A DNA stretch of 64,000 nucleotides from Rugalucina vietnamica (Eukaryota > Mollusca > Bivalvia > Lucinida > Lucinidae). Of the stretch, positions 1,263-63,530 are shown one piece after another. Below the pieces are notes generated by a model. The model was not told where the DNA came from, made no database searches, and saw nothing but the letters and a program-made list of their open reading frames with translations. Position 1 is the stretch's first letter. Each line of letters begins with the position of its first letter. The stretch covers positions 16,389,851 through 16,453,850 of the forward strand of contig OZ024878.1 of assembly GCA_964017185.1 (NCBI GenBank), in the 5' to 3' direction. A program made the translations under genes and the position numbers.

Positions 1263-4200
1263 CTGGGAAAATACAAACACAATTTCAAGATTATTTAAAC
1301 CACATGATTAGAAATGAGCTGCAACACGAGAAAACTGGTCTTCGGGGTTTCCGACCAGGTCCAACACAAATCGGCCTGTACAGTCTCAGAAGCAGACTAG
1401 AAGCTTGAAATTTTGGATTCAAAAAGAAGTGAAATTGTACTTTCTGTGTAGCGAAAACAAAGGGCCGGCAGTGCTCCAGATAGCGTCCGTACAGCCGTAA
1501 TTTACGGACTTAATTTTCGCAGATACGGTAGAAATTGAAATTTTGTCAGTACCAAAAACGGGAACGAAATGACCGATACGGTTGGGTTACGCTTATTGAC
1601 CGTAACCTTAACTCATTATCCCCAGAGTGCCGCTAATTTGAGGCAGATTTCTCCGCATGCCATTATTTACAATGCTTCCCGAGTGCCACGAAAAGTCGTC
1701 ACATACGATTGGTCCACAAAATACGAATTTCTAGCTTTGTTTAAATTTCAACCAATCAAATTCGCGCTTACATCGGTAGTTGGCATATTTTACTACAAAG
1801 AAAACGAAAGTAGAACATTTGTTTCCGGAGTTAAATGCAAGTAAACAACGATGGAAAATGGTGAAAATCTAGGGGTTTTAAATCGTGATTGTACTGGTGA
1901 CACGCCAAATTCACAAAATTCCACATGTATTTAAGCTGATACATCGCTTTGAAACCAGAGTATGTAGCATTTTCATATCTATCTAAGGTCAATACGGGGA
2001 AAGGTTGTGCATTGGACGCTGACACTTAGTCAAGACTTGCAAGTCTTTATGAGCTAATGTACTCCCCCACCTTCCCTTTTACTTCTGTCTTGCACATATC
2101 TTTCAATAGGCCTGGGTTATTAAGGAGAGGGTGAAGAATAAAATGCAAAATACAGGGGAACCTATGCCCAAATTTTTCACAGGGTTGAACTTAAAAAGTC
2201 TTCATGGGCAAATAGAACAGGTACTGAAGCCGAAATCTGGATACTGATTGGCTTAAATTTTGACCAGTACTGTACTGATTGAGAAAAAAATTATCTGGAG
2301 CACTGCAAAGGCGCTGATCAGCTTCGCATTAACTGCGAAGCTGATCTGCGTCTTTGTTTTCGCATAGACAAAAATCTGGTTTTCTCATGATGAGGCTCAA
2401 ATCATGGCTGCTCTCTGCATATGTGAAAACAAACATTGCAGATCAGCTACACCCTATTTAAGAATCAAACATAACGGCATACAAGTCATCAAGTTAAATC
2501 AAAACAATCAAGTCAAGGCTCCCAAAAAATTTATTTGCTGTAAGGAGATTGAAAATAAAGGCCGTTTATGGCATTAAAAGTTTCTATGCCCCCAAAGATA
2601 GTGTTTTATTGAGATTGATATGTGAGCCGCTGCACCAGAAAACCAACAATCTGCATATGCGAAAACATAAGTGCAGATCAGCTGTGCAGTAACTGCACAG
2701 CTGATCAGCATCTTTGTTTTTCCTACAAAGATAGTACAATACCCCTTCTTCTTAAATCCGAAATTTCGAGCTTCTAGCCTGTGTCTGTGACTGTACAAGC
2801 CAGACTGTGTCAAACCTGGCCTGAACCACACATTGTTGGTTTTCCCATGCGAAGGCTCATGTATAAAACTTAAAAGACAACTTACAGGTACAACTGGTGT
2901 ATCCCAATATTTTTTACAAGTCAAATATGAACACACAGCATCTGTCAATGAGGCTGAAAACAGAACACTAGAGCCACTGGAAAACTGATGTCACATATAT
3001 TAACTCTTTACATAGAAGTTGTATCTACCCGAAGAAAAGTTTGTATTTATTCAATTTTACTTGTATGCTAGGATGTTATTTTATCAAAAAGACGCAGATA
3101 AAACTGTGAAAAATTTATAGGACAAAAGATGTCCGAAGAAATATTTTCATGACCAAATCTCCATATACGAAAGTACCAGACATAGAGATCAACCCTATGC
3201 CCCATTCAATAGATTTGGATATATACTTACTAGGCTAATTAGCCCAATATACTAGGTTTCTAATGAAGAAAAGAAAAGCTTCTTAAGTCATTAATGCATT
3301 TAATATATGAGCCGCGACGCGAGAAAACCAGATTTTTTGCCTATGCTAAAAACAAAGGCGCTGATCAGCTGTGCAGTAACTGCACAGCTGATCACCGCCT
3401 TTGTTTTTGCTACTCGGGTAGTACAATATCTCTTCTACATATAGCCGAAGATTCATCTAACCATCTTCTGTGACTTTACAAACAGATTTGTGTCGCACCT
3501 GGTCGGAAACCCCGAAGACCGGTTTTCTCGCACCAAGGCTCATATAAACTTACATCTCAGTTTGTTGGTGACATTCCAGGACAGTTTCTCTGGTATACAA
3601 GCTTCTAGTAACTCCTGTAATATATAACAAATAATGCCTTTAAAACAAGTGTGAAGCAGACTGGCACAGTTGGTAGGGTCAAGGGCAGGAGGGGTCCCTG
3701 GTCAAGCCTCATCCAGTGCACCAGCTGCTGTGGCTTTGAGCATGTCACATTTCTACAACTCAGTATAGTGATACCAGACAGAAACAGTAACCCAAGGGAC
3801 CGAACTTTGTAACCCAAGGGACTGAACTGTAACCCAAGGGACAGAACTGTCTATCATATCCACAAATGGATGTTGGATTCTTTAGGTGGCAAGTCTTGAA
3901 TTGTATAGCCATTTCCTTTGTAAACACTTTGTAATCAAGTATGCCATTTTAAATGTTTGTGATGTCGTAGCGTGAGCGCTGAATGACAAAGTTATGTGAC
4001 ATCCTTTACAACTAATGTAATTTCTTCTTTAAGGTGATGTCATTGCTTAGTAAGGTAACGGATAAGATAAGGATTCCTCATTCTGGGTTGCCCCGTGTAA
4101 AACATTGGATTTTTCTATCTGGTGAGCATGAAAATGTTTTTCTTGCTCACCAGATAGAAAGATCCTACATTTTACCCCATTTGAGAAATTCTTATCTCAC

Positions 4201-7200: not shown

Positions 7201-8414
7201 TCAGGCTGCAATAGTTTTCAAAAAATCCATAGTTTTCACTTTTTCCCATGTAAAAGCCTATGTTTCCAAATTTGACCTTGCCGTAAAATAGGTCAAGGTC
7301 ATCCAAGGGTCATCATTTTGTCAAACTATGATGGGCTTAAGTCCCCGATGCTACATACCAAGTTTAGAGGAAATCGGCCCACCGGTTCTGGAGAAGAAGA
7401 TTTTTGAGCGGTTTTTAACATATATGGGTGTGGCGGCCATCTTGGTCATGTGACCTGGATTTCGCGATCAAACTTGAAATGCCACTACCCAAGGAGGCTC
7501 CACATAAAATTTCAACTAGATCGGCCAAGCGGTTTCAGAGAAGAAGATTTTTGAAATTGTGGATGACGACGGACGACGACGGACGACGACGGACGGACGC
7601 CGGATCATGGCCATCCTATTAGCTCACCTTGTGAGCCTTCGGCTCAGGTGAGCTAATAAAATATATGAGCCGCCTCATGGGAAAACCAACAATCTGCATA
7701 GGCGAAAACAAAGGCGCAGATCAGCTTCGCAGTAACTGCGAAGCTGATCAGCGCCTTTGTTTTCGCTACACAGATAGTACACTTCCCTCTTCTTCTTAAA
7801 TCCGAAATTTCAAGATTCTAGCCTTCTTCTGTGACTGTACAGACCGGTTTGTGTCAGACCCGTTCGGACACCACATTGTTGGTTTTCCAACGAGGTGGCT
7901 CATATAACAAATCAATTATTATACACATACCAGATGATGCCACGAAATTACAGATATTTCCTAAGCATCAGGAAAACCTGTCCATGTAATGTACACTCCT
8001 CATACCCCACTTTTGTAGTTTTATCTAGTAAAACTGGGGTTTGCAGGGGTATACCTATTTTTGTTGATCCAAAACATAGATTGTGGGTACTGTTAGAACC
8101 GCTCTCGCCAAAATTTCTCCAGCGAAAATCTTCACTTTTACAACAAAAACAATTTCTGTATATTGCATGGGCGTGTTTTCGTGAAGGGGGAGCATGCCTG
8201 CGTGGAACCCCTGTTTGAGGCATCACACATTTGCCTTCACACCGTCAGTGCTTAACTATGGTCGCACAAATAAGATTTCATTGCTACGCCTTTGACAAGT
8301 CATGTAACTTACCTGATGGATGACTTTTCTCACAGTTCTTGATTTGTCCCTCTCACAGTCTTCACAACTGACTGATAATATCACTACACAAACCTGCAAC
8401 ACATATACAGCCAT
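1168..8414 (-). CDS. Secreted or type I membrane protein with one C2H2-type finger (six exons, 3' end missing)
   Basis: Six exons on the minus strand join without a stop: 8414..8313, 5560..5351, 4666..4529, 3614..3554, 2953..2886 and 1262..1168. All five internal junctions have AG acceptors and GT donors (most GTAAG), with phases 0,0,0,1,0 and phase 2 at the last donor, so at least one more exon lies downstream outside the window. The product so far is about 225 aa: a signal peptide (MAVYVLQVCVVILSVS), a Cys-bearing region, a C-x2-C-x12-H-x4-H finger at about residues 77-98, a Cys-rich middle, and a hydrophobic helix at about 200-221. Signal peptide plus one late helix suggests type I topology, which would put the finger in the ER lumen or outside the cell; that is inference. 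I do not recognise the family. Introns hold hairpin MITEs and repeat arrays. The exon chain is well supported; the first exon could instead be internal, because a CAG precedes GTTTGTG at 8393. Confidence 0.8.
1315..2399 (-). mobile_element. Hairpin MITE copy A, split by a TIR insertion
   Basis: It starts ATGAGCTGCAACACGAGAAAAC and ends GATGAGGCTCA. The central palindrome (GATCAGCTTCGCA ... TGCGAAGCTGATC) is present, but the copy is interrupted at AACAAAGG by the 837-bp element at 1469..2305. It lies in reverse orientation relative to the copy at 3308. Confidence 0.85.
1469..2305. mobile_element. 837-bp TIR element nested in the hairpin MITE
   Basis: Ends are CAGTGCTCCAGATA and TATCTGGAGCACTG, perfect 14-bp inverted repeats. 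Comparison with intact MITE copies places the insertion in CAAAGGCGC; the right flank is CAAAGGCG and the left flank ends CAAAGGGCCGG, so the TSD is imperfect. CAGTG ends suggest a non-autonomous hAT-like element. The interior carries a 91-codon open frame (1569..1844) with no recognisable domain. Confidence 0.8.
2623..2859 (+). mobile_element. Hairpin MITE copy B
   Basis: 237 bp from TGAGCCGC to GGCTCA. The core palindrome is of the TGTGCAGT/ACTGCACA type. The right end lies 27 bp from exon 5 of the secreted C2H2 gene. Confidence 0.9.
2886..2953 (-). CDS. Exon 5 of the secreted C2H2 gene
   Basis: 68 nt, acceptor CTGTTTTCAG|CCTCATTG, donor GTACCT|GTAAGTTG. The split codon joins exon 4 as Ser. 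It encodes SLTDAVCSYLTCKKYWDTP and a few more residues, ending in phase 0. A hairpin MITE starts 27 bp past the exon edge (2859 on this strand). Confidence 0.8.
3308..3542 (+). mobile_element. Hairpin MITE copy C
   Basis: 235 bp, TGAGCCGCGACGCGAGAAAA at the left and matching inverted sequence at the right, flanked by TATA on both sides. The core palindrome is of the TGTGCAGT/ACTGCACA type. It abuts the donor of exon 4. Confidence 0.9.
3554..3614 (-). CDS. Exon 4 of the secreted C2H2 gene
   Basis: 61 nt, acceptor ATTACAG|GAGTTAC, donor GAGAT|GTAAGT, leaving phase 1. It encodes ELLEACIPEKLSWNVTNKLR. NVT is a possible N-glycosylation sequon. A hairpin MITE ends at 3542, about 12 bp from the exon edge, just past the donor consensus. 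Confidence 0.8.
3795..3855. repeat. Short tandem repeat TAACCCAAGGGAC
   Basis: Three near-identical units read (TG)TAACCCAAGGGAC[CT/A]GAACT. No coding or regulatory role is visible. Confidence 0.7.
4048..4208. repeat. Imperfect inverted repeat (hairpin), about 160 bp
   Basis: The left arm (AAGATAAGGATT...TATCTGGTGAGCATG) is matched by the right arm (TTGCTCACCAGATA...AATTCTTATC). The arms face each other around 4135. The outer GATGTCATTG at 4036 and CAATGACATC at 4303 may be an outer pair of the same element. Confidence 0.7.
4413..4498. repeat. Inverted repeat (hairpin), 86 bp
   Basis: GTAAGGTATGGATAGACCAAT faces ATTTGTCTATCCATACCT, with CTGTCCC and GGGACAG inside. It lies in the intron about 30 bp from exon 3 of the secreted C2H2 gene. 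Confidence 0.75.
4529..4666 (-). CDS. Exon 3 of the secreted C2H2 gene
   Basis: 138 nt, phase 0 at both ends, acceptor TTTCAG|GAGACAG and donor TGTCAG|GTTTGT. It encodes 46 aa with four Cys (ETDSVCLADFCEIFRCDV ... ALCMEEDMQDLTQDCQ would give five with the last). An 86-bp inverted repeat starts about 30 bp past the donor. Confidence 0.85.
4950..5157 (-). mobile_element. tRNA-derived SINE
   Basis: On the minus strand an A box (TGGCAGAGTGGTTAAGAG) and a B box (GGTTCCAAGCCC) are followed by a tail containing GCCAGGTGGTTTTTCTCGGG. The A-to-B spacing is longer than in a tRNA, so it is a SINE or its relic, not a tRNA gene. It lies in the intron between exons 2 and 3. Confidence 0.6.
5351..5560 (-). 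CDS. Exon 2 of the secreted C2H2 gene (zinc finger)
   Basis: 210 nt, phase 0 at both ends, acceptor ATTCACAG|GAGTTGG and donor TATAAG|GTAAAG. The 70 aa run from ELVPIYKDLGIKVPYECPF to the finger (CDYCGKAF, then HFDNRH), matching C-x2-C-x12-H-x4-H. The spacing is that of a classical C2H2 finger. Confidence 0.85.
5967..7656 (+). mobile_element. Composite Helitron-like array A (GACCTTGACC repeats)
   Basis: The left end ACCAGAGGACCAATGGTCCT includes a small palindrome; the right end is a hairpin (GAGCCTTCGGCTC) followed by AGGTGAGCTAA and then T. Between them lie about three and a half repeats of a ~470-bp unit containing GACCTTGACC, CTGGAGAAGAAGATTTT and CATCTTGGTCATGTGACCTGG. A 3' hairpin followed by CTAA|T is how Helitrons end, and bivalve pearl elements are known to be non-autonomous elements with tandem cores. 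The assignment is inference. A short GACGGACGAC run lies at 7565-7600. Confidence 0.6.
7666..7902 (+). mobile_element. Hairpin MITE copy D
   Basis: TGAGCCGCCTCATGGGAAAAC to GGTGGCTCA, flanked by TATA on both sides. The core palindrome is of the TTCGCAGT/ACTGCGAA type. It follows array A by only 9 bp. Confidence 0.9.
7967..8183 (+). mobile_element. Foldback MITE with GATTGTGGGTAC core
   Basis: It starts ATCAGGAAAACCTGTCCATG and ends CATGGGCGTGTTTTCGT, which are imperfect inverted repeats. The interior shows ACTGGGG.. and the CATAGATTGTGGGTAC motif. The same family recurs at 8773, 10203, 25734 and 40036. Confidence 0.75.
8313..8414 (-). CDS. Exon 1 of the secreted C2H2 gene (signal peptide)
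   Basis: It encodes 34 aa from an ATG at 8414: a short hydrophobic leader, then CEDCERDKSRTVRKVIHQ, then donor CAG|GTAAGT. Another in-frame ATG lies upstream at 8438 (MLYGHIFI...). The leader fits a signal peptide with cleavage near SVS|CEDC. If CAG|GTTTGTG at 8393 is used as an acceptor, the exon shortens to 8313..8393 and the start lies elsewhere. Confidence 0.65.
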
Positions 8415-11156: not shown

Positions 11157-12291
11157 GGGTGTGTGCAATCACCAGATCGGACCGGAAAGAAACAAGGTCG
11201 GAAGTAATTACCGAATCAGACCTAATTTTTCATTGACTTTTAGACTCATTTTAGCAATAATCATGAGTGGTTTCAATCAAATTAACATCCTAGCCCTTCT
11301 GAGCAACGTTGTGGGTGATCATAATTGCTCTCTTTCCCAATTTAAAGTTACATGTATTAATTTGGCGGCCAGCTGCTAGATTCGTGTTTGAAGATTCCAA
11401 AATACCAAATATGTACAAAACCATGCCAAACTTTGTATAGTCGGCTCCAAACTACCTGAAAATATTCATTTGACCATTTTAAACTTAAACTTTAAATTTC
11501 TTCCATCAAATGAGCCGCGACGCGAGAAAACCGGTCTTCGGGGTTTCCGACCAGGTCCGACACAAACCGGCCTGTACAAGCTCAGAAAAGAGTTAGAAGC
11601 TTGAAATTTCGGATTTAAGTAGAAGAGGAATTGTACTATCCGAGTAGCGAAAACAAAGGCGCTGATCAGCTTCGCGGTTACCGCGAAGCTGATCTGCGCC
11701 TTTGTTTTCGCATAGGCAATAATCCCGTTTTCTCATGATGCGGCTCATTTATAAACATTATTGAAACAAAATCAATTACACAGCATTCAATCTCTTCCCA
11801 TACTAAAGAGAAACTAAACAAATCAATGGTAGGTTTTACTCCAGTATGTGGAGATTTGGAGACGTGGGTTTTTGGTCATGGTACCTTTATAAATTCATTT
11901 ATACCCCAATATTAAGCACTGGATATGTTTGGTATGATGATATCAGTGGTCAAAATTAGGATTTTTCCTCACTAGCCCAAACCCCTTTATCTTTAATCAT
12001 TTGCCAAAATTTTCCAATAGCCCAAGCTATGTAGGAAATGGGTTAAACTGAGCAAAAACTACTAGCTCGACAACCCTTTGGCTAGTGTTGGACGCAAAAT
12101 CTACTAGCCCGACAACCCTTTGGCTAGTGTCAGGCAATCGGGCTAGTGCTAATTTCCATCACTGTGCTATGCCATGAAATATCTAAGTGAAAGCCTGTTA
12201 AAGCCAATAATGAAAGGCAAATGTTGGTCCCATTCGGTAATTATGTCCGATCTGGTCTGATCCTGTCCGATCTGGTGATTACACACACCGC
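11157..12291. mobile_element. hAT-like non-autonomous element with 8-bp TSD TTTACAAG
   Basis: Ends GGGTGTGTGCAATCACCAGA and TCTGGTGATTACACACACCGC are inverted repeats extending about 60 bp with gaps. Identical 8-bp flanks TTTACAAG lie at 11149-11156 and 12292-12299. The interior holds hairpin MITE copy E and two direct copies of CGACAACCCTTTGGCTAGTG near 12065-12130. No transposase is seen. Confidence 0.85.
11511..11747 (-). mobile_element. Hairpin MITE copy E
   Basis: TGAGCCGCGACGCGAGAAAA to GATGCGGCTCA, 237 bp, reverse orientation. The core palindrome is of the TTCGCGGT/ACCGCGAA type. It is nested in the TTTACAAG element. Confidence 0.9.
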
Positions 12292-14909: not shown

Positions 14910-15557
14910 ATGCCTATAAAACAAACCATTGAGCTTGAAAGAGCATGTGAAGACAAAAATCCGAAGAAATTTTGGCAATTTCTGAAGGGAGATAAATTTT
15001 CCAATTCTGTTAAAATTTCTGCAAATGAATGGTTTTATTATTTTTCCAATCTTTTTAATTCAAACCTTGATACTGAAACTGAACATACCTTCGAAGAGGA
15101 CGATACGATTATAATTGACGAGATGCTAGATGAACCAATCAATGCTTCGGAAATACGAAAATCAATTGTTAATTTAAAGAATAACAAATCCCCAGGTATA
15201 GACGGCATTCCAGCTGAGTTTTACAAGGTTGCATGTGACAAATTTATACCTTTCTTTGAGATTCTATTCAATAAATTGTATAATAGTGCATATTTTCCAG
15301 ATGATTGGGCAATTTCGATCATAACTCCTATTCACAAGAAAGGCAATAAAAACATACCTGATAACTATAGAGGCATTAGTCTACAAACATTAGTCTACAT
15401 TAGTCTACAAGTTATTAGTAAGATATATACGGCTATCTTAACTAATCGATTATCAAACTGGAGCAATGTTAATAATGTAATTGGAGAAGAACAAGGAGGG
15501 TTCCGCAGTTCTTATTCCACTATTGATAACTTGTTTTGTCTTCAAACCAGTCTCTAA
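14910..15557 (+). pseudogene. LINE reverse transcriptase, fingers part
   Basis: 215 codons with RT landmarks: NNKSPGIDGIPAEFYK, ITPIHKKGNK, NYRGISL and GEEQGGFR. A small internal duplication of ATTAGTCTACA units (15376-15411) adds a few residues after NYRGISLQT. The frame then shifts near 15550. Confidence 0.9.
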
Positions 15558-16120
15558 AGTCTAAATACCTACGCAAACAGGGTGGTCGATGTTATGCTGT
15601 TTTTGTAGATTTCGAAAAGGCATTTGACTGTGTGGATAGAAATGCACTTTGGAAAAAATTACAATCATTGCATGTAAGTTCTAAAATGAATAAAATGCTT
15701 AGGTCAATTTACTCTTCTGTGAAAGCATGTGTAAAAACTCAAACTGGATTAACGACTGTTTTCAACTGCCCTGCTGGTGTACGTCAAGGATGTTGTATTT
15801 CACCTATACTTTTTTCCTTTTTCCTAAATGACTTAAAAGATTATGTATCCACTGATAGTTACGGTATTAGTCTTGATGTTTGTAAAATTTTTCTTTTACT
15901 TTTTGCTGATGATTTAGTAATGTTCGCAGAAACCAAAATCGAGCTACAAAGATTGTTAAATAAGCTGTTTGAGTACTGCAGTCGATGGAACTTGAAAGTC
16001 AATATAGACAAAACGAAAATAATTGTCTTCCGTAATGGGGGCTATCTTCGGCATTATGAAAAATGGTTCTATGGAAATATTAGGCTAAAAGTTGTAACAT
16101 ATTATAAATACAACTGGTAA
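15536..16120 (+). pseudogene. LINE reverse transcriptase, palm part
   Basis: 194 codons carrying the catalytic motifs: FVDFEKAFDCVD (motif A), GVRQGCCISPILFSFF (motif B) and LLFADDLVMFAE (motif C). All three catalytic Asp are kept. The last residues before the stop derive from the insert that begins at 16111. Confidence 0.9.
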
Positions 16121-18195: not shown

Positions 18196-18687
18196 TTTTA
18201 CCCTAATATATTCCTGTATTGTATTGCAGTTAAGGCGTTATTGTACATTGAGAACAATAAATGTTAATTATCTATTGCATATTTAAAACTGACAGAACAG
18301 GTTTTCTAATAGAAAGCATAATGTGTTTACGAACCGTGTCGGCTGCGTGTATATTCACGAGTGATAATTGCCATTTCAGTAATTTTTAGACGGACACAAT
18401 CCACCGCTCGCGAAGCGTGGATGACAGTCTAGTGGTGAAACGATTCATCGCGATGCATCGAAAACCGAGTACTCTGCTGTTGATTCGATTAACGATTCAG
18501 GCACGAAGCGGTTCGGTTCGGTTCGGCAATCGGCAAAGTGATGTCTTTTAACCAGCTTGGGAGCGATGTATTTTACATCTGACCTTCATAAAATCATACC
18601 AATGAAACGCGCGATTTGATTGGTCCATTTCTTCTTACCGGCCAATCAACATCCCCGTATCGTTTTCTGTTCGTTTACCTGGCTAAG

Positions 18688-24012: not shown

Positions 24013-24582
24013 CAGATGAGAGTCTGGTATTTCGACAGGAACATCATAATAGAAAATACACATTACGTGTTCTCGCGCATATTCGAAAGAAATACGCGAC
24101 CGAACTACTTTAATTTTAGCCCCGCCCCTACTTACGTCAGGTGACCAAGATTAAAGAAACAACTACTCTGATTTTATGACTGAGATTAATTGCGTTTTAT
24201 GTTTTGATCAAAGCATGTTTTGGTTCCGCATACATCTTATTCCAGTTTGTGCGACTCTTTGATGATGCCGAGCGGTATGTCACACAATATCCCCACGTGT
24301 CATATGGTTTATTGGCACGCTTGAAAGGAATGTTTCGGTCATATTAAATCTTGATAAATTGATTTTATTTATTTCTTTTTAATTGATCTTGTATCATTTC
24401 TATTTCTTTTTTCATGGCGATTTATCGTACAGAGTCGGGAATTGGAAATGAACTTTGAAAATTTAATTGACATTATGATACTCAAAGTTTACAAAGATTA
24501 ATGGATAGTAAAAATTAAAATGATCTTTGTGCGCCATAAATGCGATTTTCCGAAGAAAAATCTGTAACTTACGCCTAACCTT

Positions 24583-24775
24583 CAGGTGCGACACAAACCG
24601 GTCTGTGCACTGACAGACGATGGCTGGGAGCTTAAAATGTTTAATTTAAGAAGAAGAGGAATTGCGCTACCCCTCGAACGAAAACAAAGGCGCTGAGCAG
24701 CTGTGCAGGTACTGCATGGCTAATCTGCGTCTTTGTATATAGGCGAAACATCAGGATTTCTCACAACGCGGCTCA
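24583..24775 (-). mobile_element. Hairpin MITE copy F, truncated
   Basis: The outer left end is missing; it begins at CAGGTGCGACACAAACCGG and ends ACGCGGCTCA. The core palindrome is decayed (GAGCAGCTGTGCAGGTACTGCATGGCTAATC). Confidence 0.8.
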
Positions 24776-25733
24776 TATTACATCTGCTGATCACCTCGGT
24801 GTAACTTTAGTTGTATGCGTTCTCATATATGTACATGTATTACCAAAGACATTTGAGTCCTAAAGTTTTCATATTGAAACGTTACATACGATCTTCTAAA
24901 CGTATAATGGGCCTTTTATTATCACAGACATAAAATCAGCATAAAAAGTCCTTTAAATTATTTATAATCTTGAAAATAAGGAGATACGCTGAACCTTTGC
25001 CAAACATCTTTTTTGATAATGTCGTATTTCAATACTAACTATGTTTGTTATTTTACATTCTTCTTGTAAAAGAAACGAGTTTAATAATATTTCGTTTATA
25101 AATTTGACCGGAGAGCTTTTGCATGTTTTGATTGATTCGGTTATTTTAATTTTGCATTACTTTTATTATTGTATTGTTTCATATTGCACTTTAATTCTTT
25201 CAGATATTTATTTTGGTTTTTTAATATAATTATTAAAGATTGCTTCCCTTAATAAATGATACAAGTATCAGCTTTTTTGTAAACAGAAGCAAAAGGATTG
25301 CGTTTTATCTTTTGATATACGAAATTGTGAGCTATTAAATCGAAAACATTTCTCATTTATCATGCAAACTTATTTGTTGTATGTCGTGAAGCATACCTAT
25401 TTGATGCATGTTTGCGACCTAAGGATCGCCAAGATGATAAAGTCGTTATGCCCTGATGCTAAACCGTTCTGATCAGCTAATTGCCTAGCAGATGCATGAA
25501 TGGTATTGATTAAAAAGAAAGAAGAAAAACTATTACAGCATTGTTTGTTTTTTCGTTTGTCGCTTACGTCGTACATTTACTTCGTGTACCCGAACACAAA
25601 AGCCGAGAACATGTACACTGCCCTAACGCGTACAAGTAATGCATGCGATCGGAATTCGAGGGCCTGTCGCTTAAACCATAAACTTTTCAATAGATTCTCG
25701 CAGATATTTTCTTTTCTCTTTTTATCTTTCTAC
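24776..25733. other. AT-rich stretch, nothing recognised
   Basis: No splice-consistent exon and no repeat border was found. The open frames at 25041 and 25500 look accidental. Confidence 0.5.
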
Positions 25734-26333: not shown

Positions 26334-26556
26334 TGAGCCGCTGCTTCAGCTGAAAACCAACAATCTGCATATTCGAAACCAAAGACGCAGATCAGCTGCA
26401 CAGCTAATCAGTGTATTAGTTTTCGCTACATGTTCAGTACAATTCCTCAACTCTCAAAATTCAAACTTGAGTTGCCCGTCTCTAGCCATCTTGGTTTGTG
26501 TCGGACCTGGTCGAAAACTCAGATTGTTGGTTTTCTGATACATGTATGAATGCTCA
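26334..26556 (+). mobile_element. Hairpin MITE copy G, diverged
   Basis: TTGAGCCGCTGCTTCAGCTG to ATGCTCA. The core palindrome has partly decayed (GATCAGCTGCACAGCTAATCAG). Confidence 0.8.
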
Positions 26557-34165: not shown

Positions 34166-34498
34166 CGGTCCCGATAGCGTAATGGTTAGAGCGTCCGCTT
34201 CGGAAGCGGGAGGCGCGGGTTCGAACCCGGGCCGCGTCATACCAAAGACGTTAAAAATGGTACCAGTGGCTACCTTGCTTGGCGCTCAGCATTCATAAGG
34301 CAAGCACTGGCTTCTCTTCTCTCAAAAAAAAAGATAACTTCAATGATGGGAATACAGTAAATATGTTAAGGTGATGGTTGGTGGCGGGCAGTGTAGTTCT
34401 ATCATTGGAGTCTGGTGATGGTAATACCCTTACTCGGGGTTAAAATGAGGTGCGCCGATAAGTCAACGGCGGAACACTACGAACATACATACATACAT
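34166..34498 (+). mobile_element. tRNA-derived SINE (tRNA-Pro-like head), copy 2
   Basis: The head has an A box (ATAGCGTAATGGTTAGAGCG), an anticodon arm GTCCGCTTCGGAAGCGGG with CGG in the loop (Pro-like) and a B box (GGGTTCGAACCCGG). Acceptor pairing is poor, so it is a SINE head. The body is shared with the minus-strand copy at 23740; the tail is GGTGCGCCGATAAGTCAACG then (ACAT)n. Confidence 0.85.
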
Positions 34499-41222: not shown

Positions 41223-41477
41223 CACCCCATAGATCTATTACATAAATCGTGTGGCAGTCGACGTTGATATTGGGACATTGATGCTGACTGCCTATTTCAA
41301 CATAAATGTCAAAACCAAAAATATCAGAAATACCCGAGTTCTCATGTTATGGGAGTATCCGGGTCATTGACGTCGATACCGAGTTATACAAAAACTACAC
41401 GTGTACATTCTACTATTGCACCGGTTGCGGTTTCTACTTTCGGTTTCGATTTCTCCACGTGAATATCAAGGGTTGAA

Positions 41478-45489: not shown

Positions 45490-46397
45490 TATGGAACGCC
45501 GGTCCGTCATGCTAATTGTAAAATGCTAAATGCTAATTGTTAATTGTTAATTATAGGGCAATACTGTACTAGAGGGTGGTTGGGTAGTTATAACTAGTAA
45601 CATAATAGAATAAATAGGACTTGCTAAATGATAATTGGTAATTTAGAATTTGAAAAAAAAAGTAAATGCGAAAACTTAATTGCAGATTGCTAAATGACCC
45701 GTCATGCAAATTGTAAAATGTTAAATTTCAATTGTTGATTGTTAGTTGCATTTTTCGCCGGTCCGTCTGGCTAATTGTATAATGTTAAATGATAATTGTT
45801 TATTGCATTTTTCACCGTCATGCAAATTGTAAAATGTTAAATGTCAATTGTTAATTGCATTTTTCGCCGGTCCGTCATGTTAATTGTAAAATGCTAAATG
45901 TTAAGTGTGTATTGCATTTTTGCCGGTCCGTCATTCTAATTGTAAAATGTTAAAAGTAAAGCGTTAAATGTTAATTGTTATTAGCAAAATACATTTACGA
46001 ATTACAATGAATGACAATCTGAATTGAAATTATCATTTATATTCACATTTAACAATTAGTATGACGGACCAGCTTAAAATGCAGTCAACAATTAACATTT
46101 AACATTTAGCATTTTAAAATGCAATTAGCAATTTACAAATAGCATTTAGCATTTTACATTTAACATTTTACAATTAGCATGACAGACCAGTGAAAAATGC
46201 AATAAACAATTAACATTTAACACTTTACTTTTAACATTTTACAATTAACATGACGGACCGGCGAAAAATGCAAAAAACAATTAACATTTAACATTTTCCA
46301 TTTAACATTTTACAATTAGTAAGACGGACCGGCGAAAATGCAATTAACAATTGACATTTTACATTTTACAATTTGCATGGCGGACCGGCGTTCCATA
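45490..46397. mobile_element. Palindromic repeat array with 6-bp TSD GTTTTG
   Basis: Ends TATGGAACGCCGGTCCGTCA and GGACCGGCGTTCCATA, with GTTTTG on both sides (45484-45489 and 46398-46403). Inside, units of CGCCGGTCCGTCATGCTAAT plus AAATGTTAATTGTTAATTGC-like spacer repeat about six times leftward and then about five times in the opposite sense, turning near 46010. It is an arrayed foldback element inserted in LINE-derived sequence. Confidence 0.85.
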
Positions 46398-52617: not shown

Positions 52618-53315
52618 CTTAATGTTTTTCATTGGGAAATGAAGAACATCAAGAAAGATACTTTCATCTAGGGCGATTGCAATAAAAAATGTAAATATAA
52701 CGAATTGTAAATATAAGCTATTAACATTTTTTCATGATTCAAGTTTGGACTCCTAAATTTGTGTTCGGACTCCTTGATTTCTGAAGTTAGGAGTCCGATG
52801 GACTCCTCAAAGACTCCTTAATCAAAAAAGTTAGTGTCTAACTCTGGCATTCATGTAGTTTAGCTGTTCGATCCTCATGGTGGATCTCTAACTTGTCCAT
52901 GAATCTTCACGGAAACTTGAACAATAACAAATAACTGAAAAATAATTTGAATTTTTTTATTTCCTTTGAAAAAAAAATAAAAAAAAATCAGGTTTTGACA
53001 TCTTTAACAACAAAATATAACAATAAACAACAAAAGAAGCAATTTTTTACAGCAAAATAAGAACTAAAAGGTTTTGATTTTAACATCTTTCGATATGGCT
53101 GTGTCACACCTTTTACAACTGATAAACTTGCATAGTTATCATTCATCTCCTTCAGTGACTCAAATTTCCACTTTCTTTGAAATTGTGCAAAAATGGGTCA
53201 AATATTATGTTGTACATTGTATCTCAATTATATTTTACTGCCAGATCCTAACAGCAGCCTAATGAGGGTGAAGGTGGTTGCTACTGTAGAACAATGGCTA
53301 TTTTCAAAGCAATTT

Positions 53316-53547
53316 TAGCCGCTGCATTAGAAAACTAACAATCTGCATATGCAAAACCAAAGGTGCAGATCAGCTGTGCAGTAACTGCACAGCTGATCAG
53401 TGCCTTTGTTTTTACTTCAAGGATAGTACAATCCCTCTTCTTCTTAAATCCAGAATTTCAAGCTTCTAGCCTTCTTCTGTGACTGTACAGACCGGTTTGT
53501 GTTCAACCTGCACGGAAACTAAAATTGTTGATTTTTTCATAAGGCTA
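53316..53547 (+). mobile_element. Hairpin MITE copy H
   Basis: TTAGCCGCTGCATTAGAAAAC to AAGGCTA. The core palindrome is of the TGTGCAGT/ACTGCACA type. Confidence 0.85.
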
Positions 53548-53777
53548 ATTCTGGTGTTGAAAATACTAAATCAGAGAGTTCAATTATGAAAAAGATGTCA
53601 AATGTGCGTTTAACAGGTAGCATATTCAATGTACATATTTTATATCAATTAGCACAAAGTCAATAAAAGAATTAACAAATATTGTATATACACAGTGGTT
53701 TCAATGCAATCGATATAGCACCCTTCGGTACCTCACATAAGATTTACAATCTGCTATTGAGCTCGTAGCAAAGTACA

Positions 53778-54013
53778 TGAGCCGCTTCAAAAGAAAACCG
53801 GATTTTTGCCAATGGGAAAACAAAGGCATAGATCAGCCTTACAGTAACTGTGAAGCTGATTATCTCCTTTGTTTTTGCTACATCGATAGTGCAATTCCTC
53901 TTCTTTCTAAATCCAAAATTTCTAGCCTCTAGCCATCTTCTTTAGGTGCACAGGCCGACTTGTGTCGGGCCTGGTCCGAAACCACATTGTTGGTTTTCTC
54001 ATGACTCAACTCA
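53778..54013 (+). mobile_element. Hairpin MITE copy I, diverged
   Basis: TGAGCCGCTTCAAAAGAAAAC to ATGACTCAACTCA. The core palindrome (GATCAGCCTTACAGTAACTGTGAAGCTGAT) carries mismatches. Confidence 0.85.
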
Positions 54014-56956: not shown

Positions 56957-57586
56957 CAAAACAAATAATGTTGTTTCTAAGAGATTTTTTAAAGATATTT
57001 TTTTAAGATAACATTTAATACAAAGTGAAAAGTTTAAAACATGCAACACTTCAAACAATACTTGAGCATATCAGGTGTCTTCTGGTAAGGTGTATTTACA
57101 ATTACATACAAAGCACAGAACACTGGCCAAAATGGCGAGTGATAATGGAAAGTATGTGCGACAAAAGAAACACCATATTCATTCTGATGAGCGCACATGC
57201 GGCAATAAGTCAGTTCTTTTTTGGACTTGTATATCGTGCAAATAATTGCAAATCTGTACTTTTGCAAGGAAAATGCCCTGAATATCCCTACACAACTTCA
57301 AATCAAAATGTTCAGCATGAGTGACATGCTACAAGCCAGAGACTATTGTTCACCTATTTCACTTTTTGTATTTATCTTTCTACTCTGAAAGTTTTTATGA
57401 GACATTTGAAAGCTCCCAATGTGCACTTATTGGAAAAAATTTCGTTACCTGCACTTAACATGCTTAACATAGCGTGTTGAAGCACATTTATCAGAATTAA
57501 TTCTGTACTTCAATGCTAAAAATAATCTTGAAGGGCCATAAAAACAGTCTGTATACAAGGAGCAAGCCCACAAACACACCATTACA
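56957..57586. other. Intergenic, nothing recognised
   Basis: AT-rich with accidental open frames on both strands (57025, 57267). Confidence 0.5.
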
Positions 57587-57811
57587 TGAGCCGCATCGTG
57601 AGAAAACCGGATTTTTGCCTATGCGAAAACAAAGGCGCAGATCAGCTTCGCGGTTATCAGCGCCTTTGTTTTCGCTACACGGATAGTATATTTCCTCTTC
57701 TTCTTATATCCGAAATTTCAAGCTTCTAGCCTGCTTCTGTAACTGTACAGGTCAGTTTGTGTCAGACCTTGTCGGAAACACCGAAGACCGGTTTTCTCGC
57801 GTCGCGGCTCA
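57587..57811 (+). mobile_element. Hairpin MITE copy J, core shortened
   Basis: TGAGCCGCATCGTGAGAAAAC to GTCGCGGCTCA. The core reads GATCAGCTTCGCGGTTATCAGC, so part of the right palindrome arm is deleted. The outer TIR is well kept. Confidence 0.9.
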
Positions 57812-58060
57812 CATGACATTTCAATGACAATATACAGTGTATTTAATTGAACACAAAATGGTTATAACCCTGAACACATTTTTAAGTAAATTCTGATTTG
57901 ACTGAACACATGTTTCTGGCACTTGGAAGACACTGACTTTAAGTTTGAGAATGTCAAACATTCTGCATATTCAATTTAAATTGAGCATTTTGAACTGTCT
58001 TGATTAGATTTTTTTTACTTGATTTCTTAACTTTCACAAGTCAGACAATCAAGATAGAAA

Positions 58061-58297
58061 TGAGCCTGTGCATGAGAAAACCAACAATTTGGGTTTCCGA
58101 CCAGGTCCAACATAAACCAGGCTGTACAGTTACAGAATAAAGCTAGAAGCTTGAAACTTTGAATATAAGTAGAAGAGGAATTGTACTATCCGTGTGGCGA
58201 AAACAAAGGCGCTGATCAGCTTCGCAGTTACTGCGAAGCTGATCTGCGTCTTTGTTTTCGCATATGCAAATTGTTGGTTTTCTCACGCACAGGCTCA
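58061..58297 (-). mobile_element. Hairpin MITE copy K
   Basis: TGAGCCTGTGCATGAGAAAAC to CGCACAGGCTCA, reverse orientation. Core of the TTCGCAGT/ACTGCGAA type, perfectly paired. It lies downstream of the Ser-rich gene. Confidence 0.9.
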
Positions 58298-58805
58298 AAT
58301 AATATGACCTGATCAGTTTATCAATGGTCTGTAGAATATCAATGTATGAAGTCGACAGCACATTTGTATTCGACAGCGCATTTGTCATGCTTTGTGTTAC
58401 CTGATGGCTCTTTTTATTCCTGGTAAAGGATTTAGGTCGACATTTTTTTTTTTTCAGTTCAATGCTCATAGCTGCTTCAATTACAATCGATCTATAGCAC
58501 TTTTGACATATATAAATCAGAAAATATTTCAACAATTAGTTCTGTAACAACTGGCAAGATAAAATCTTAAAGCACATCATAATGATCATGATAAAGACTG
58601 CATCAGATGTTCAAAACTTTCAGAAACTAACCTTGTACTAGAAGCTTGAACACAAAATGTAAGCTACACTATTCTATGGTACACAAGCCTACTACTAACC
58701 AGCCTTACATCCACAGAAGAGGATGGCATCGATTAATTTCTAGTATGTGACTGACTGGGTTAGGAAAATTCCTTAAACATCCTACCAGAACAGCAGGGCT
58801 ATATA

Positions 58806-59035
58806 TGAGCTGCGTCATGAGAAAACCAACATTTTGCAAAGGCGAAAACAAAGGCGCAGATCAGCTTCGCAGTGACTGCAAAGCTGATCAGCGCCTTTCT
58901 TTTCGCTACTTAGATAGTACAAAAAAATTCCTGTACTTTCAAAACCAAAATTTCCAGCCTCTAGCCATTTTCTGTGATTTTCTGTGCTTCTGCAGTTTGA
59001 TTTGTCTCAGACCTGTTTTCTCAAGACGTGGCTCA
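58806..59035 (+). mobile_element. Hairpin MITE copy L, in the likely 3' UTR of the Ser-rich gene
   Basis: TGAGCTGCGTCATGAGAAAAC to GACGTGGCTCA, flanked by ATATA / TATAT. It begins 48 bp past the stop codon (59083) in the direction of that gene. Possible poly-A signals lie beyond it (AATAAA on the minus strand near 58415), so it could be transcribed in the 3' UTR. Confidence 0.85.
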
Positions 59036-59082
59036 TATATTGTCTGTTCTTTGTCTTGTCAATACAACCAATGCCATCCAGC

Positions 59083-59115
59083 TCAGTCTTCTTCCTCACT
59101 AGCCGCATCAAACAT
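59083..59115 (-). CDS. Ser-rich gene, last coding exon
   Basis: 33 nt, acceptor CATCATTTCAG|ATGTTT. It encodes MFDAASEEED and a TGA stop. MITE copy M begins 34 bp upstream of the exon on the plus-strand map, close to the branch-point region. Confidence 0.75.
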   Translation of the reverse strand: MFDAASEEED

Positions 59116-62100
59116 CTGAAATGATGGAAGCAAAGATAATGGAACATATGAGCCGTGCCAGGAGAAAACCGGATTTTCGCCTTTGCGGAAACAAAGGTGC
59201 AGATCAGCTGTGCAGTAACTGCACAGCTGATCAGCGCCTTTGTTTTCGCTACAGGGATGATAGAGTACCTCTTCTACGCATAGCCAAAATTTTAAGCGTC
59301 TAGCCTTTTTCTGTGTCTGTACAGGCCGATTTGTGTTGGACCTTGACGGAAATCCCGAAGACAGGTTTTCTCATGTCGAGGCTCATATTATGTATGGTTG
59401 AAGGCCGATTTGTGTTGGACCTTGACGGAAATCCCAAAGACATGTTTTCTCACGTTGCGGCTCATGTTATGTATGGTTGTTTCATATATGAACTTTATGA
59501 AACCAGCTTTCTGTGGGTTATGTCATCATGAGGTCACAATTTTTAACTGTTCGTTGGACAATCAACCGATCATATAATTACAAACTCCTGTAACAGTGTT
59601 AATACACCTGTGTACTCATATCATATTATTACATGAAATAATTGACTAAATAACCTACCCCTAGCAGATTCTTTGGCTCTATATTAGACTTGGTGCCCGG
59701 CACGTCATCCAGCTCTAGATTACCTCCCTCTATTTCATAAGTGGGGGTTATTGCCCTTTCCTCCTCACACATACTGAAACTACTGTTGAAGCTGTCATTG
59801 TGGTTGTGCACTGGACTCGCTGAATATCTAGAGGCACTGAAATCACAGCCAGATTACCAGATGGAGGAAGTATTTGATGAAAATTGAACAAGTATATGTT
59901 GTAGGTGCCTCAGGAAGATTATGCACTGGTCTTTTGTAACCACAGCCCCTCCCACTCACAGGGGAGGGCAGGGGGTAGCCGTGGAAATAAGCAGGGCTTT
60001 GAACAAAGTTTTGCCATGGCAGTGCGGGGGAAATACCCAGGGTTTGCTTTATATAGGCAAAAAGAGCCGTCAAATGAAGATAGCAAGCTGTGGGGGGAAA
60101 AGAGCAGTGGTTTAACCAACACGCATTCCCCGCAGGGTGGGGTTTTAGCGGGGATTTGCTGGACCAAAATTCAAAGCCCCCGCTATTCCCCGGGGTTGGG
60201 GTGGAGGTGTGGTTACAAATGACTCGTGCATTACTCTAATGTACAATACTGGTTTTCCAGTGAGCGCCAACAACAAACATTTTAAGTTTTTGGTAAGCCA
60301 AGATGTTAACCAGTACTTTAGGAACTTATTGTGTCTTGCTAAAGGACACACTCAGCACAAGCTGGATTCACACCGCTGATTTTTGATTAGGAGTCTAACA
60401 CTCTGGGCCCAGTTGTTCAAAACTTCGTAAGCTTAACATCATTGTTAAAAGAACTCAACTCGTTTTAAGTAAATGCCGACTACATAAGCAAATACACTGT
60501 TATTTTTTGTTGATAAAATTTGAGAATCCTTTGCATTGGATTCTCACATTTTATCAACAAAATATAACAGTGTATTTGTAATATTCATGTTTGAAATTTT
60601 AACGAATCATTAACTGATGACATCGTTAATTTTGAACAACTGGCCCCTGGTTGTCAGTCCATGACTTTTATCATATGAGCCGCCCCATGGGAAAACCAAC
60701 CATCTGCATAGGTGAAAACAAAGGCGCAGATCAGCTTCGCGGTAACCGCGAAGCTGATCAGCGCCTTTGTTTTCGCTACACGGACAGTACACTTCCTCTT
60801 CTTCTTAAATCCGAAATTTCAAGCTTCTAGCCTGCTTCTGTGACTGTGCAGCCTGATTTGTGTCAGACCTGTTCGGGAACCACATTGTTGGTTTTCCCAC
60901 GAGACGGCTCATATCTAACCATGCTCCTGGAAAAGAATGTGACAGTTAATTCTTTACATACCTTCTAGATGGTGGATGTACAGGTGACGAGCTGACCGGA
61001 GATGGAATATGGCCGAAGTGGCGATGGCGAACAAAAGGTGTGGTGAAGGCATTGCGTACTGGCTTTTGACTGGAAAAAGGAGATAGAGATAAAAAGGACA
61101 TCTTTAGAACATAGCCATCTTTATTTTAGTCTCCTTTATATTGCTGACTTCTTCAAAATGAATTCTTGCTTATCTAAAGTTATCCAGCAGCTTATAAGCA
61201 AATATTGTCTTGAATTACTGCTTTTAATCTATAGTTGTGAAATTTTAGTGGTGGTGGCTATGAAAGCCTATGATATTTGTGCTCTACATCCAACTCAACA
61301 GCTAAGTCATATGGAGATGGGACTCGAGTTTAAAGTCTCGGTTGAAAGACTGAAGAAGGCCTGGGTCAAACTTGCCGTCCCTGGTTTACAAAGCAAGTGG
61401 CTTGATCTCTACACCACAGACATTTACAGCAAGTTTGGGTTCTCAAGTTGAAGATATTCACCAGAAAGAAATGCAAGTACACAGAACAGATCTATTAACC
61501 CACATAAACCTGGTGTGGTTCTTCTCTTTGTGGGTATAGGCAAACCGCACAGCCCAGATATGACCTCACAGAAAATGGGCTATTCTGTCAGTGTAGAAAA
61601 TAGGCAGTTTGTCTGTAAGTCAGGTTGAACATTAGTCATCAACATGAAAGCCATGTACCAGCTAACCTCCAGATTGCACACTATCTGTTTGACCACCTAA
61701 TGCCCATAAAATGAAAGTGGACTCTATGATGGCCCCGACTAAAGCTATTCATTTTAGTTGGTTGGGGCCGGAGCTTCTTGTCTGTTGCTTGGCCCACCGG
61801 GGTTCAACTGGTGTTTTTCTTTTGCTCCGGAGTTAGTAAGTTATTTGGCGCCCAGGGATCTCCATCGTCGGGCAGCTTACTCAATCTGTGAGTCCTGGTT
61901 TTTGATTCATCAGGATGTTTATGATTTATTTGTCTGTTCTTGATGATTCATTTACTAGTTAGAGATTCACCACGAGGACCGAAGAAGTAACTAAATGTTA
62001 TGAACCACTGCAGAAGCTGAGGGTGAGGTTACGGCCGTGTAAAATCGATTTAAACCCGCCAGTAACTTTGTGTTACTGATCGTTCCAAGTCGATACTTCT

Positions 62101-63530
62101 GTGGTGGTTCTTTTTGTTTTATGTCTTTTACAATTGACTGAGTTTTATGTAACTGAGTGGCCACCTATTGGGAAAATAGCTGCTCATTCGGCTTACGAAA
62201 CGTTTTCATGGTATAAGTACCTGATTGTTAGTTTGGTTTTTTCCCACCTCGGTTTTTGGAGTGGAAATCTTTTTCTGATTGCGCCTTTTCCTGATCTTTG
62301 CCTACTTGTACCTTTTCACACCCAAATGATATTGATGTGCAAGTCCAATAATATGATAAATGGGCTATAAATAGACTTACTGTGGCATAACAAACTCCTC
62401 ACTGAAACTGTCGTTGGAAGACGAGGATTCTAACAGAGCACCGATAGAGTTGTTGTTGATACTGATGTCATTCTCAAATATCTCATCTGCCACAAAAAAA
62501 GATCATATGAGCCGCAATGTCAGAAGATGGACTTTGGTGTTTCTAACTACTGTAGAGCAAAACGCTTGAAACGTTAAATTTAAACAGAAGAGGAACTGTA
62601 TTATTTGTGTAGTGAAAATAAAGGAGCAGATAAGCTGTGCAGTCTCTGCAGAGCTGATCTGCACCTTTGTTTTTGCATAGGCCGAAGTCCGTTATTCTCA
62701 TGACTACCTCAAATGTTTTATCTTTTTCCTGCCTTTTCTTGATCTTTTCTTTCTAAAAACCTGTTGCACGTGAAGGCCAATCTATCTTATGCTTCATTTG
62801 TACATCATTATATTCTGTATTAGGTCATTCAACATGAATACTTTACAGGTTCTTCATTTCTACCAGTGTAGGAAAATGTTAGATAGTCTTTTACAGCGAC
62901 AGCTAAAGTCATGATGGGATGGTCATTTATCGTAGACAGTTCCCGGGCAGGTCACAAAAGGCAGATTACCAGCAGTAACTGCACATTTCTTTCACCACTA
63001 ACTAACAGATGCTCTTCTTAGATCAGAATGGTTGTAGAAATGAGCCGCCACATGGGAAAACCAACAATCTGCCTAGGCAAAAACAAAGGCGCCTTTGTTT
63101 TCGCTACTCTGATAGTACAGTTCCTCTTCTTTCTAAATCCGAAATTTCAAGCTTCTAGCTCCTTTCTGTGCTCGTACTGGTCGGTTTGTGTCAGACCTGG
63201 TCGGAAATCACATTGTTGGTTTTCCCACCAGGCCGCTCAATTATGTGAGGATAGATTGTGGGTCTGCTTCACGAAGTCGTGTCAGGCGCACTACTGATCA
63301 AGCTATCGAGCCCAGTTACCAGTGCAGTAATTACAAAACTCATTATAAACTTATTCAAATATACCATCAGATAAGCTATGGTCCAGCCCGAGGCTTGAAT
63401 TGAGACTATGAGAGCCACTGGAAACGGACGAGTATTTCCGTCGTATCTTGTTGATCGGCTTCATGAACACGCTGGTGATTAACATTATGAACTGCCACAG
63501 GCGGTAGAATGTGGATTTCACTGTGGAAAT
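59083..63530 (-). CDS. Unknown membrane-associated Ser-rich protein, last five exons
   Basis: Exons 63530..63365, 62486..62381, 61069..60962, 59836..59659 and 59115..59083 on the minus strand join to 196 codons plus a stop. Splice borders are GT-AG, and phases 1, 0 (as CA|T), 2 and 0 match at each join. The product segment starts with a hydrophobic stretch (FYRLWQFIMLITSVFMKP) followed by KIRRKY, then Ser-rich sequence with SP sites (PSPVSSSPVHPPS), several acidic blocks (SLSDDEIFENDIS; EEERAITPTYEIEGG) and a C-terminal MFDAASEEED. This suggests a membrane-anchored or membrane-binding protein with a cytoplasmic, phosphorylatable tail; that is inference. I do not recognise the family. The 5' part lies beyond the window. 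Introns and the 3' flank carry five hairpin MITEs. Confidence 0.8.
59149..59385 (+). mobile_element. Hairpin MITE copy M
   Basis: TGAGCCGTGCCAGGAGAAAAC to GTCGAGGCTCA, flanked by TA. Core of the TGTGCAGT/ACTGCACA type, perfectly paired. The right end (from 59324) is tandemly duplicated once more up to about 59465, period 79 bp. Confidence 0.9.
59386..59466 (+). repeat. Tandem duplicate of the right end of MITE copy M
   Basis: GGCCGATTTGTGTTGGACCT occurs at 59324 and again at 59403, followed both times by GACGGAAATCCC, TTTTCTCA and TTATGTATGGTTG. One duplication of 79 bp. Confidence 0.9.
59659..59836 (-). CDS. Ser-rich gene, exon 4 in window
   Basis: 178 nt, acceptor GATTTCAG|TGCCTC, donor CTAGGG|GTAGGT. 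It encodes SASRYSASPVHNHNDSFNSS, then FSMCEEERAITPTYE and ends EPKNLLG. Confidence 0.85.
59922..60230. mobile_element. TGCAC-ended MITE, TSD TTA (PIF/Harbinger-like)
   Basis: Ends TGCACTGGTCTTTTGTAACC and GGTTACAAATGACTCGTGCA; TTA on both sides (59919-59921 and 60231-60233). The ends are C-rich and G-rich (CAGCCCCTCCCAC ... GGGGTGGAGG). It shares its ends with 44619..47200. It lies in the intron 85 bp from exon 4 of the Ser-rich gene. Confidence 0.88.
60270..60400 (-). mobile_element. SINE of the GAGCAAGACA family, reverse
   Basis: On the minus strand: GAGTGTTAGACTCCTAATCA, GTGTGAATCCAGCTTG, then CTTTAGCAAGACACAATAAG. It is the reverse of the 43730 copy, diverged. Confidence 0.65.
60405..60647. 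mobile_element. GGGCCC-ended foldback element, copy 2
   Basis: Ends GGGCCCAGTTGTTCAAAAC and TTTTGAACAACTGGCCCC; inner stem CACTGTTATTTTTTGTTGAT / ATCAACAAAATATAACAGTG. It matches the copy nested in the hAT element at 22056. Confidence 0.85.
60676..60911 (+). mobile_element. Hairpin MITE copy N
   Basis: TGAGCCGCCCCATGGGAAAAC to GAGACGGCTCA, flanked by ATA. Core of the TTCGCGGT/ACCGCGAA type, perfectly paired. Confidence 0.92.
60962..61069 (-). CDS. Ser-rich gene, exon 3 in window
   Basis: 108 nt, acceptor TTTTTCCAG|TCAAAAG, donor AGAAG|GTATGT. It encodes QKPVRNAFTTPFVRHRHFG, then HIPSPVSSSPVHPPSR. MITE copy N ends 50 bp beyond the donor. Confidence 0.85.
61070..62380. other. Intron of the Ser-rich gene with dispersed repeats
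   Basis: At 61285-61345 lies a relative of the AACAGCTAAGTCATATGGAG repeat of 50300. The remainder has no recognisable element; open frames at 61758 and 62101 look accidental. Confidence 0.5.
62381..62486 (-). CDS. Ser-rich gene, exon 2 in window
   Basis: 106 nt, acceptor TTGTGGCAG|ATGAG, donor CCACA|GTAAGT. It encodes DEIFENDISINNNSIG, ALLESSSSNDSFSEEFVMP. A hairpin MITE (copy O) ends about 22 bp from the acceptor. Confidence 0.85.
62508..62711 (-). mobile_element. Hairpin MITE copy O, diverged
   Basis: TGAGCCGCAATGTCAGAAGA to ACTACCTCA, reverse orientation. Core GATAAGCTGTGCAGTCTCTGCAGAGCTGATC, with some unpaired bases. It lies 22 bp upstream of an exon acceptor. Confidence 0.8.
63041..63239 (+). 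mobile_element. Hairpin MITE copy P, palindrome deleted
   Basis: TGAGCCGCCACATGGGAAAAC to CAGGCCGCTCA. The centre reads AAACAAAGGCGCCTTTGTTTT, a perfect short palindrome: the inner part (about 38 bp in other copies) is gone exactly between the symmetric arms. Confidence 0.9.
63365..63530 (-). CDS. Ser-rich gene, first exon in window
   Basis: 166 nt, acceptor CATTTTCAG|ATTTCC, donor TGATG|GTATAT, phase 1 at its end. It encodes ISTVKSTFYRLWQFIMLITS, then KPINKIRRKY and a Ser-rich part ending LGLDHSLSD. Confidence 0.85.

Follow-up and report, generated by a model that had tools for sequence, protein, structure and literature searches.

A 64-kb stretch of the genome of the lucinid bivalve Rugalucina vietnamica (contig OZ024878.1, positions 16,389,851 to 16,453,850; hereafter the window) carries sixteen copies of a ~237-bp repeat, lettered A to P by their order (Table 1). 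Given its paired terminal inverted repeats (TIRs), target-site duplications, short length and many copies, the element is a miniature inverted-repeat transposable element (MITE), a non-autonomous DNA transposon with TIRs. The TIRs are ~35-40 bp long and begin TGAGCC; in copy D, for example, 7662-7696 and 7872-7906 are 89% complementary. A palindrome of ~61-65 bp in total adjoins the left TIR, and its arms of 30-32 bp, set around a single-base centre, pair near-perfectly in the less decayed copies. One end is partly decayed, cut or missing in F, H, L and O. Among the 12 copies having both ends, the flanking 4-mers of the form ANNT are identical in nine (probability of at least nine matching 2-mers, 8e-9) and unmatched in E, I and P; alternatively, these flanks may reflect a 2-bp duplication within an A..T site. 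The count of sixteen copies given in a preliminary description of this DNA is borne out and its copy letters agree with the order in the window, the interval it assigned to the repeat (57587-60911) covering only copies J to N (5/16).

The inner part of the palindrome, here called the tip, occurs in three versions. The form TTCGCAGT/ACTGCGAA (TTCGCAG) is intact in D and K and present with single changes in A and L, TGTGCAGT/ACTGCACA (TGTGCAG) is intact in B, C, H and M, and TTCGCGGT/ACCGCGAA (TTCGCGG) is intact in E and N, copy J retaining its left arm alone. By our assignment, decayed TGTGCAG forms are probably also present in the tips of F and O and in the right arm of G. Numbered from the centre, three tip pairs vary in states common to several copies: -7 (T-A or G-C), -6 (C-G or T-A) and -3 (A-T or G-C). 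We scored covariation in 12 complete palindromes (11 distinct; A was left out though complete, and G, J and P are incomplete). The whole 30-pair stem scores 0.141 against a shuffled mean of 0.098, a score reached in 0/500 shuffles, and the inner 9 pairs score 0.253 against 0.119 (also matched in 0/500); these shuffles ignore kinship among the copies, and the paired differences amount to few events. The outer 21 pairs show no covariation (0.093 against 0.088, matched in 144/500). Covariation is limited to the inner 9 pairs.

Changes inside single copies were counted as departures from the consensus of each copy's tip type in 13 complete palindromes (A included, and copy I assigned to the TTCGCAG type by judgement). 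These departures are cells rather than independent events, one of them being shared by A, F and K, for example. Four of the 43 are paired, and 37 result in a broken pair or a G-T pair. The inner 9 pairs hold eight single unpaired changes, one single G-T and one paired change (in I, at a CpG). The outer 21 pairs hold 17 single unpaired changes, nine single G-T, two double unpaired, three paired (B at -19; C and H at -30), all three at CpG positions, and two single changes (C, O) that repair a standing mismatch at -16. Across the 16 copies, the outermost of the 30 pairs (-30) is GC in nine, GT in two, AC in three and AT in two; it is A-T in C and H, and G-T or A-C in five other copies. In the outer arm, one-sided states common to several copies persist at pairs -20 and -19. 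Resident copies, as we call elements after insertion, decay mostly one base at a time and without arm-to-arm repair. Because single copies lose pairing one base at a time, the matched tip changes seem to have come down from mobile parent elements and not to be under continual rewriting.

These results bear on what had first been proposed for the repeat. Three core versions, each with changes on both arms that keep its intact copies paired, are confirmed, and the nearly absent loop corresponds to a palindrome centre of one base. Two options had been offered for their origin, namely selection on the structure or arm-to-arm template switching that keeps rewriting one arm from the other. Structural selection fits better, while RNA and DNA roles are indistinguishable here. 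Ongoing template switching is unsupported: since the departures are mostly unpaired, continual arm-to-arm correction of resident copies is disfavoured. Upkeep by that route was expected to leave an excess of paired changes, and paired changes do not prevail inside resident copies (4/43 departures, 13 palindromes). Fold-back copying may have acted on the rare occasions on which a new tip originated.

The copies also fall into two TIR types, CCAAC and CCGG after their inner motif, which were sorted by eye from the alignment. The left and right motifs agree in 13 of the 14 copies scored at both ends, the exception being I. Copy I (53777-54013), with its unlike TIR motifs, looks like a chimera of both TIR types. 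Tip against TIR type was scored in 14 copies (all except I and P), with F and L placed by the left TIR only and the tips of F, G, J and O being degraded or incomplete. All six possible combinations are present, and we found no association between tip and TIR type in these 14 copies (mutual information matched in 3161/5000 shuffles).

Trees of the outer sequence (181 columns, palindrome excluded) are poorly resolved, and the groups used in the clade tests, like the tip and TIR types, were named after the data had been seen. The outer tree requires 8 tip changes (mean after shuffling, 6.9), and a single clade is rejected for TGTGCAG (p 2e-6 with four copies, 4e-8 with seven), TTCGCGG (8e-5) and TTCGCAG (8e-9). 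Without the TIR motifs, a TGTGCAG clade can no longer be rejected (p 0.23 with the four intact copies B, C, H and M, 0.09 with seven), the TTCGCGG clade (E, J and N) is rejected at p 0.004 and TTCGCAG barely so (p 0.04); the body alone also rejects the clade of E, J and N (p 0.02). Much of the weight of these rejections lies in the TIR motif, because the rejection of TGTGCAG vanishes without the motif columns. A statement that all three tips are rejected as clades was considered, and its TGTGCAG part was dropped for the same reason.

By outer sequence, D and N are sisters despite their unlike tips (89/75, or 93/74 without the TIR motifs, neither value starred), and on the body alone (95 columns) the pair is neither shown nor rejected (p 0.25). 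They differ at 17 of 180 outer columns and, within the 61-nt palindrome, at just both partners of pair -3, the firmest case of paired change within a subfamily. The preliminary description had named, as a result that would count against its view, a division into three old subfamilies, each with its own outer sequence and none with paired changes inside it. For TTCGCGG the copies do not show this pattern, given the paired change between D and N and the rejected clade of E, J and N; for TGTGCAG it is rejected only if the TIR motif columns are trusted.

The palindrome is better kept than its surroundings. Between E and N, 47 of 180 outer columns differ, against 0 of 61 within the palindrome (probability 1.8e-7 under an even spread, this pair being the most extreme of 12 listed). 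Across 11 copies, the outer arms diverge by 0.098 on average, the tip by 0.226, the body by 0.24 and the two TIRs by 0.277 and 0.319. Resident copies are expected to decay evenly, and thus much of the outer divergence probably accumulated in source lineages that retained the palindrome. Folded as DNA, six palindromes reach -38.3 kcal/mol (D, z -12.3), -36.5 (N), -32.1 (C), -32.2 (M), -14.7 (the decayed I) and -27.4 (L). Strong single-strand folding of this kind suits all of the hypotheses considered below.

We give roughly even chances to a reading in which the palindrome of mobile lineages is maintained by selection, these lineages gave rise to paired tip alleles that became reshuffled with the element ends, and resident copies decay unpaired. 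The palindrome would be kept by selection in lineages still transposing, where its predicted role is most likely that of a folded or dyad-symmetric DNA substrate in transposition. A few paired tip alleles would originate in these mobile lineages, and exchange between co-active elements could then place tips and TIR types in all combinations, a process for which the unlike ends of copy I might be a trace. After insertion, decay would proceed mainly base by base, with no arm-to-arm repair. High-copy hairpin transposons of this type offer natural replicates for the origin of paired changes in stems, in which shared paired tip alleles, set against unpaired decay in single copies, separate events in the mobile lineage from the fate of resident DNA.

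Several results weigh against the combination of selection and exchange. Copies of different TIR type with a common tip are no closer to each other in any of nine stretches outside the tip, outer arms included. The eight intact tips alone give 5/6 combinations, and the sixth, TTCGCAG with CCGG, depends on A. The body alone rejects the CCAAC group as one clade (p 0.03), and TIR type therefore need not track descent. The deficit of differences in the palindrome is not significant between D and N (2/19 inside, p 0.10). The outer arms are conserved without covariation, so selection for pairing itself is visible only at the tip. The short-range compatibility signal is gone once the palindrome and the TIR motifs are removed (p 0.7-0.8).

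That signal, as a measure of exchange between elements, reaches significance when all sites are used (p 0.002, five neighbours; <0.001 for the 12 better copies). It weakens without the palindrome (p 0.03), and for the body alone is marginal, at p 0.04-0.05 with three to five neighbours and 0.33 with ten. General recombination between copies is not claimed, since the signal is lost without the palindrome and TIR motifs. Among 110 informative columns, with the inner pairs excluded, TGTGCAG goes with outer-arm columns 47 and 58 (both CpG, p 0.026 each) and right-TIR column 250, and TTCGCGG with body column 151 (all uncorrected, p <0.05). Long-tract exchange finds no support in these comparisons; short exchange tracts are possible, as is old exchange followed by drift. 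For the transposon Galileo, ectopic exchange between copies has been discussed, as has gap repair that involves template switching (PMC4168063, consulted in excerpt, as were the other papers cited here).

The main rival, which we consider unlikely, is template switching localised at the tip in the mobile lineage, in which a strand folds at the tip during replication or gap repair and one arm is copied from the other. It is consistent with the restriction of covariation to the inner 9 pairs and with TTCGC and TGTGC differing at two adjacent pairs together, with no shared intermediate among the copies; likeness by tip type also stops at the tip, and comparable events have been proposed for RNA stems (PMC8794818). 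However, few departures in resident copies are paired (4/43), and the one-sided states at -20 and -19 persist in several copies. Because the same alleles occur with both TIR types, independent switches would need repeating. It is similarly doubtful that the hairpin tip (less than ~20 bp) forms a separately inherited module, both arms being rewritten as a unit while the element is mobile, by fold-back or inter-element copying, and independently of the matched TIR module. We regard as quite improbable that selection acts on the palindrome as a transcribed RNA hairpin, for instance as a source of small RNA. The fold is very stable, as computed for the DNA of D and N, and microRNAs have come from palindromic MITEs (Made1 and mir-548, PMC1784062); yet unpaired decay is common, the outermost of the 30 pairs takes all four states over the 16 copies, and no Rfam family reaches its gathering score on these elements.

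On both arms, pairs -3 and -6 fall at CpG positions. Transitions at CpG, which were absent from the options of the preliminary description, could yield the changes at both pairs. That these pairs decayed by chance, independently on the two arms, is in our view very unlikely to be the whole explanation. The observed/expected CpG ratio of the window is 0.66. When two random tip substitutions are simulated, a changed perfect palindrome results in 2% of cases without bias, 9% with a CpG factor of 10 and 12% with a factor of 20; with four substitutions, two pairs are changed in 0.1%, 3% and 7%, respectively. Left and right states are associated also at the outer CpG pair b (-19/-18, p 0.017), which blurs the contrast between inner and outer pairs. 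Nevertheless, among CpG pairs with any change, 6/14 are discordant in the outer two against 1/19 in the inner two (p 0.026), and all 11 of the 11 copies changed at the -4/-3 CpG share one complementary CA/TG form, as expected of a single old allele; the change at pair -7 (T-A or G-C) is no CpG transition. CpG transitions may explain part of the tip differences, chiefly that between GCGG and GCAG, but do not readily account for the uniform -3 state of 11 copies or for pair -7. Simple descent, in which the tips mark old subfamilies and it was the TIR motif that underwent exchange or convergence, seems highly unlikely. The TGTGCAG clade does escape rejection without the TIR motifs, and the two outer-arm CpG columns track that tip; against this, the clade of E, J and N is rejected with and without the motifs, and D and N group together despite their unlike tips.

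By architecture, the nearest known element is consensus sequence 1 of Lucina pectinata, a MITE-like repeat of 210 bp in clam haemoglobin genes that has 30-bp imperfect TIRs and a 77-bp palindromic segment with 96% identity, and fragments of which are reported in other molluscs (PMC4732748). The window element shares the TIRs of ~30 bp and the long internal palindrome, the position of which may differ: it is termed central in L. pectinata and lies next to the left TIR here, the two repeats being likened by description only. Unlike the ANNT duplications found here, no target duplications were identified by its authors, and the excerpts of that paper contain no mention of paired changes. DINE-1 of Drosophila is also short and non-autonomous, and it has a subterminal stem that differs between species, with compensatory mutations suggested by its authors (PMC2374699). 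That stem, however, is 7-11 nt long and lies near the 3' subterminal repeat, in contrast to the 30-32-bp arms here, and DINE-1 elements are called non-autonomous Helentrons (PMC4067079) and hence are no cut-and-paste elements with TIRs. Template-switch mutation in RNA stems produces paired multi-base changes that preserve the hairpin, as at the tip here, but was inferred from the histories of ribosomal RNA and microRNA genes, whereas the resident copies in the window decay mostly unpaired (PMC8794818). Made1, from which hsa-mir-548 derives, is likewise a palindromic MITE capable of forming a hairpin; its whole 80-bp length is palindromic (two 37-bp TIRs), whereas the palindrome here stands apart from the TIRs (PMC1784062).

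Among the matches listed from the open-licence literature, we noticed no report of paired tip alleles in a MITE. No relatives of the element were found in public phages (blastn), in viral contigs (six sequence patterns) or in genome contigs (one pattern). The letters and translated words of the element, looked for in papers, led to a single listed paper, on Riemerella. Other bivalve repeats combine similar TIRs with an inner palindrome of another kind; our search for one among the viral contigs returned none, and no argument here rests on them.

Table 1. Copies of the MITE in the 64-kb window, with the palindrome, tip version and TIR type of each
Copy	Coordinates	Strand	Palindrome	Tip	TIR type	Remarks
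A	1315..2399	-		TTCGCAG, one mismatch, T centre	CCGG	split by insert at ~1464-2305
B	2623..2859	+	2661-2721	TGTGCAG	CCAAC	
C	3307..3542	+	3348-3408	TGTGCAG	CCGG	
D	7665..7902	+	7704-7764	TTCGCAG	CCAAC	
E	11511..11748	-	11649-11709	TTCGCGG	CCGG	
F	24582..24776	-	24680-24740	degraded, TGTGCAG-like	CCGG (left)	right end truncated
G	26334..26539	+		right arm of TGTGCAG type	CCAAC (motifs)	inner left arm partly deleted
H	53315..53544	+	53353-53413	TGTGCAG	CCAAC (motifs)	right end decayed
I	53777..54013	+	53816-53876	degraded	CCGG (left motif), CCAAC (right motif)	
J	57586..57811	+		TTCGCGG left arm	CCGG	12 bases at tip and right arm lost
K	58061..58297	-	58199-58259	TTCGCAG	CCAAC	
L	58805..59035	+	58844-58904	TTCGCAG, one mismatch, G centre	CCAAC (left)	right motif deleted
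M	59148..59385	+	59187-59247	TGTGCAG	CCGG	
N	60675..60911	+	60714-60774	TTCGCGG	CCAAC	
O	62508..62703	-	62614-62674	degraded, TGTGCAG-like	CCGG (motifs)	first bases of left end missing; internal deletion
P	63040..63239	+			CCAAC	inner palindrome deleted; 22-nt perfect palindrome remains within 63079-63102

Some copies have been rearranged. The insert in copy A interrupts the right arm of the palindrome and has inverted ends (CAGTGCTCCAGATA / TATCTGGAGCACTG), from which we take it to be hAT-like. The right 79 bp of copy M are tandemly duplicated at 59323-59479 (2.0 copies, 92%), so that a further right end lies at 59391-59464. Deletions internal to the palindrome are present in 3/16 copies, J (57625-57673), P (63079-63102) and G (26375-26424). 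By eye, the deletion in P apparently ran between GCGC repeats and left the shorter perfect palindrome.

Elsewhere in the window, a second palindromic repeat at 60406-60646 has ends like GGGCCAGTTGTTCAAA (by eye) and inner arms of 41 nt (60489-60529 and 60538-60578, 95%), and large inverted and tandem repeats with arms of 45-101 nt occupy 45820-46267. A search of the whole window against Rfam gave one match only, a transfer RNA at 34168-34239, at its gathering score. Four open reading frames (ORFs) were scanned for domains, with matches to a reverse transcriptase (15530-16120), a BED finger (18592-20016) and a RING and B-box combination (41463-43586), a set that suggests a eukaryotic host. The ORFs surrounding the first two may be parts of the same mobile elements.

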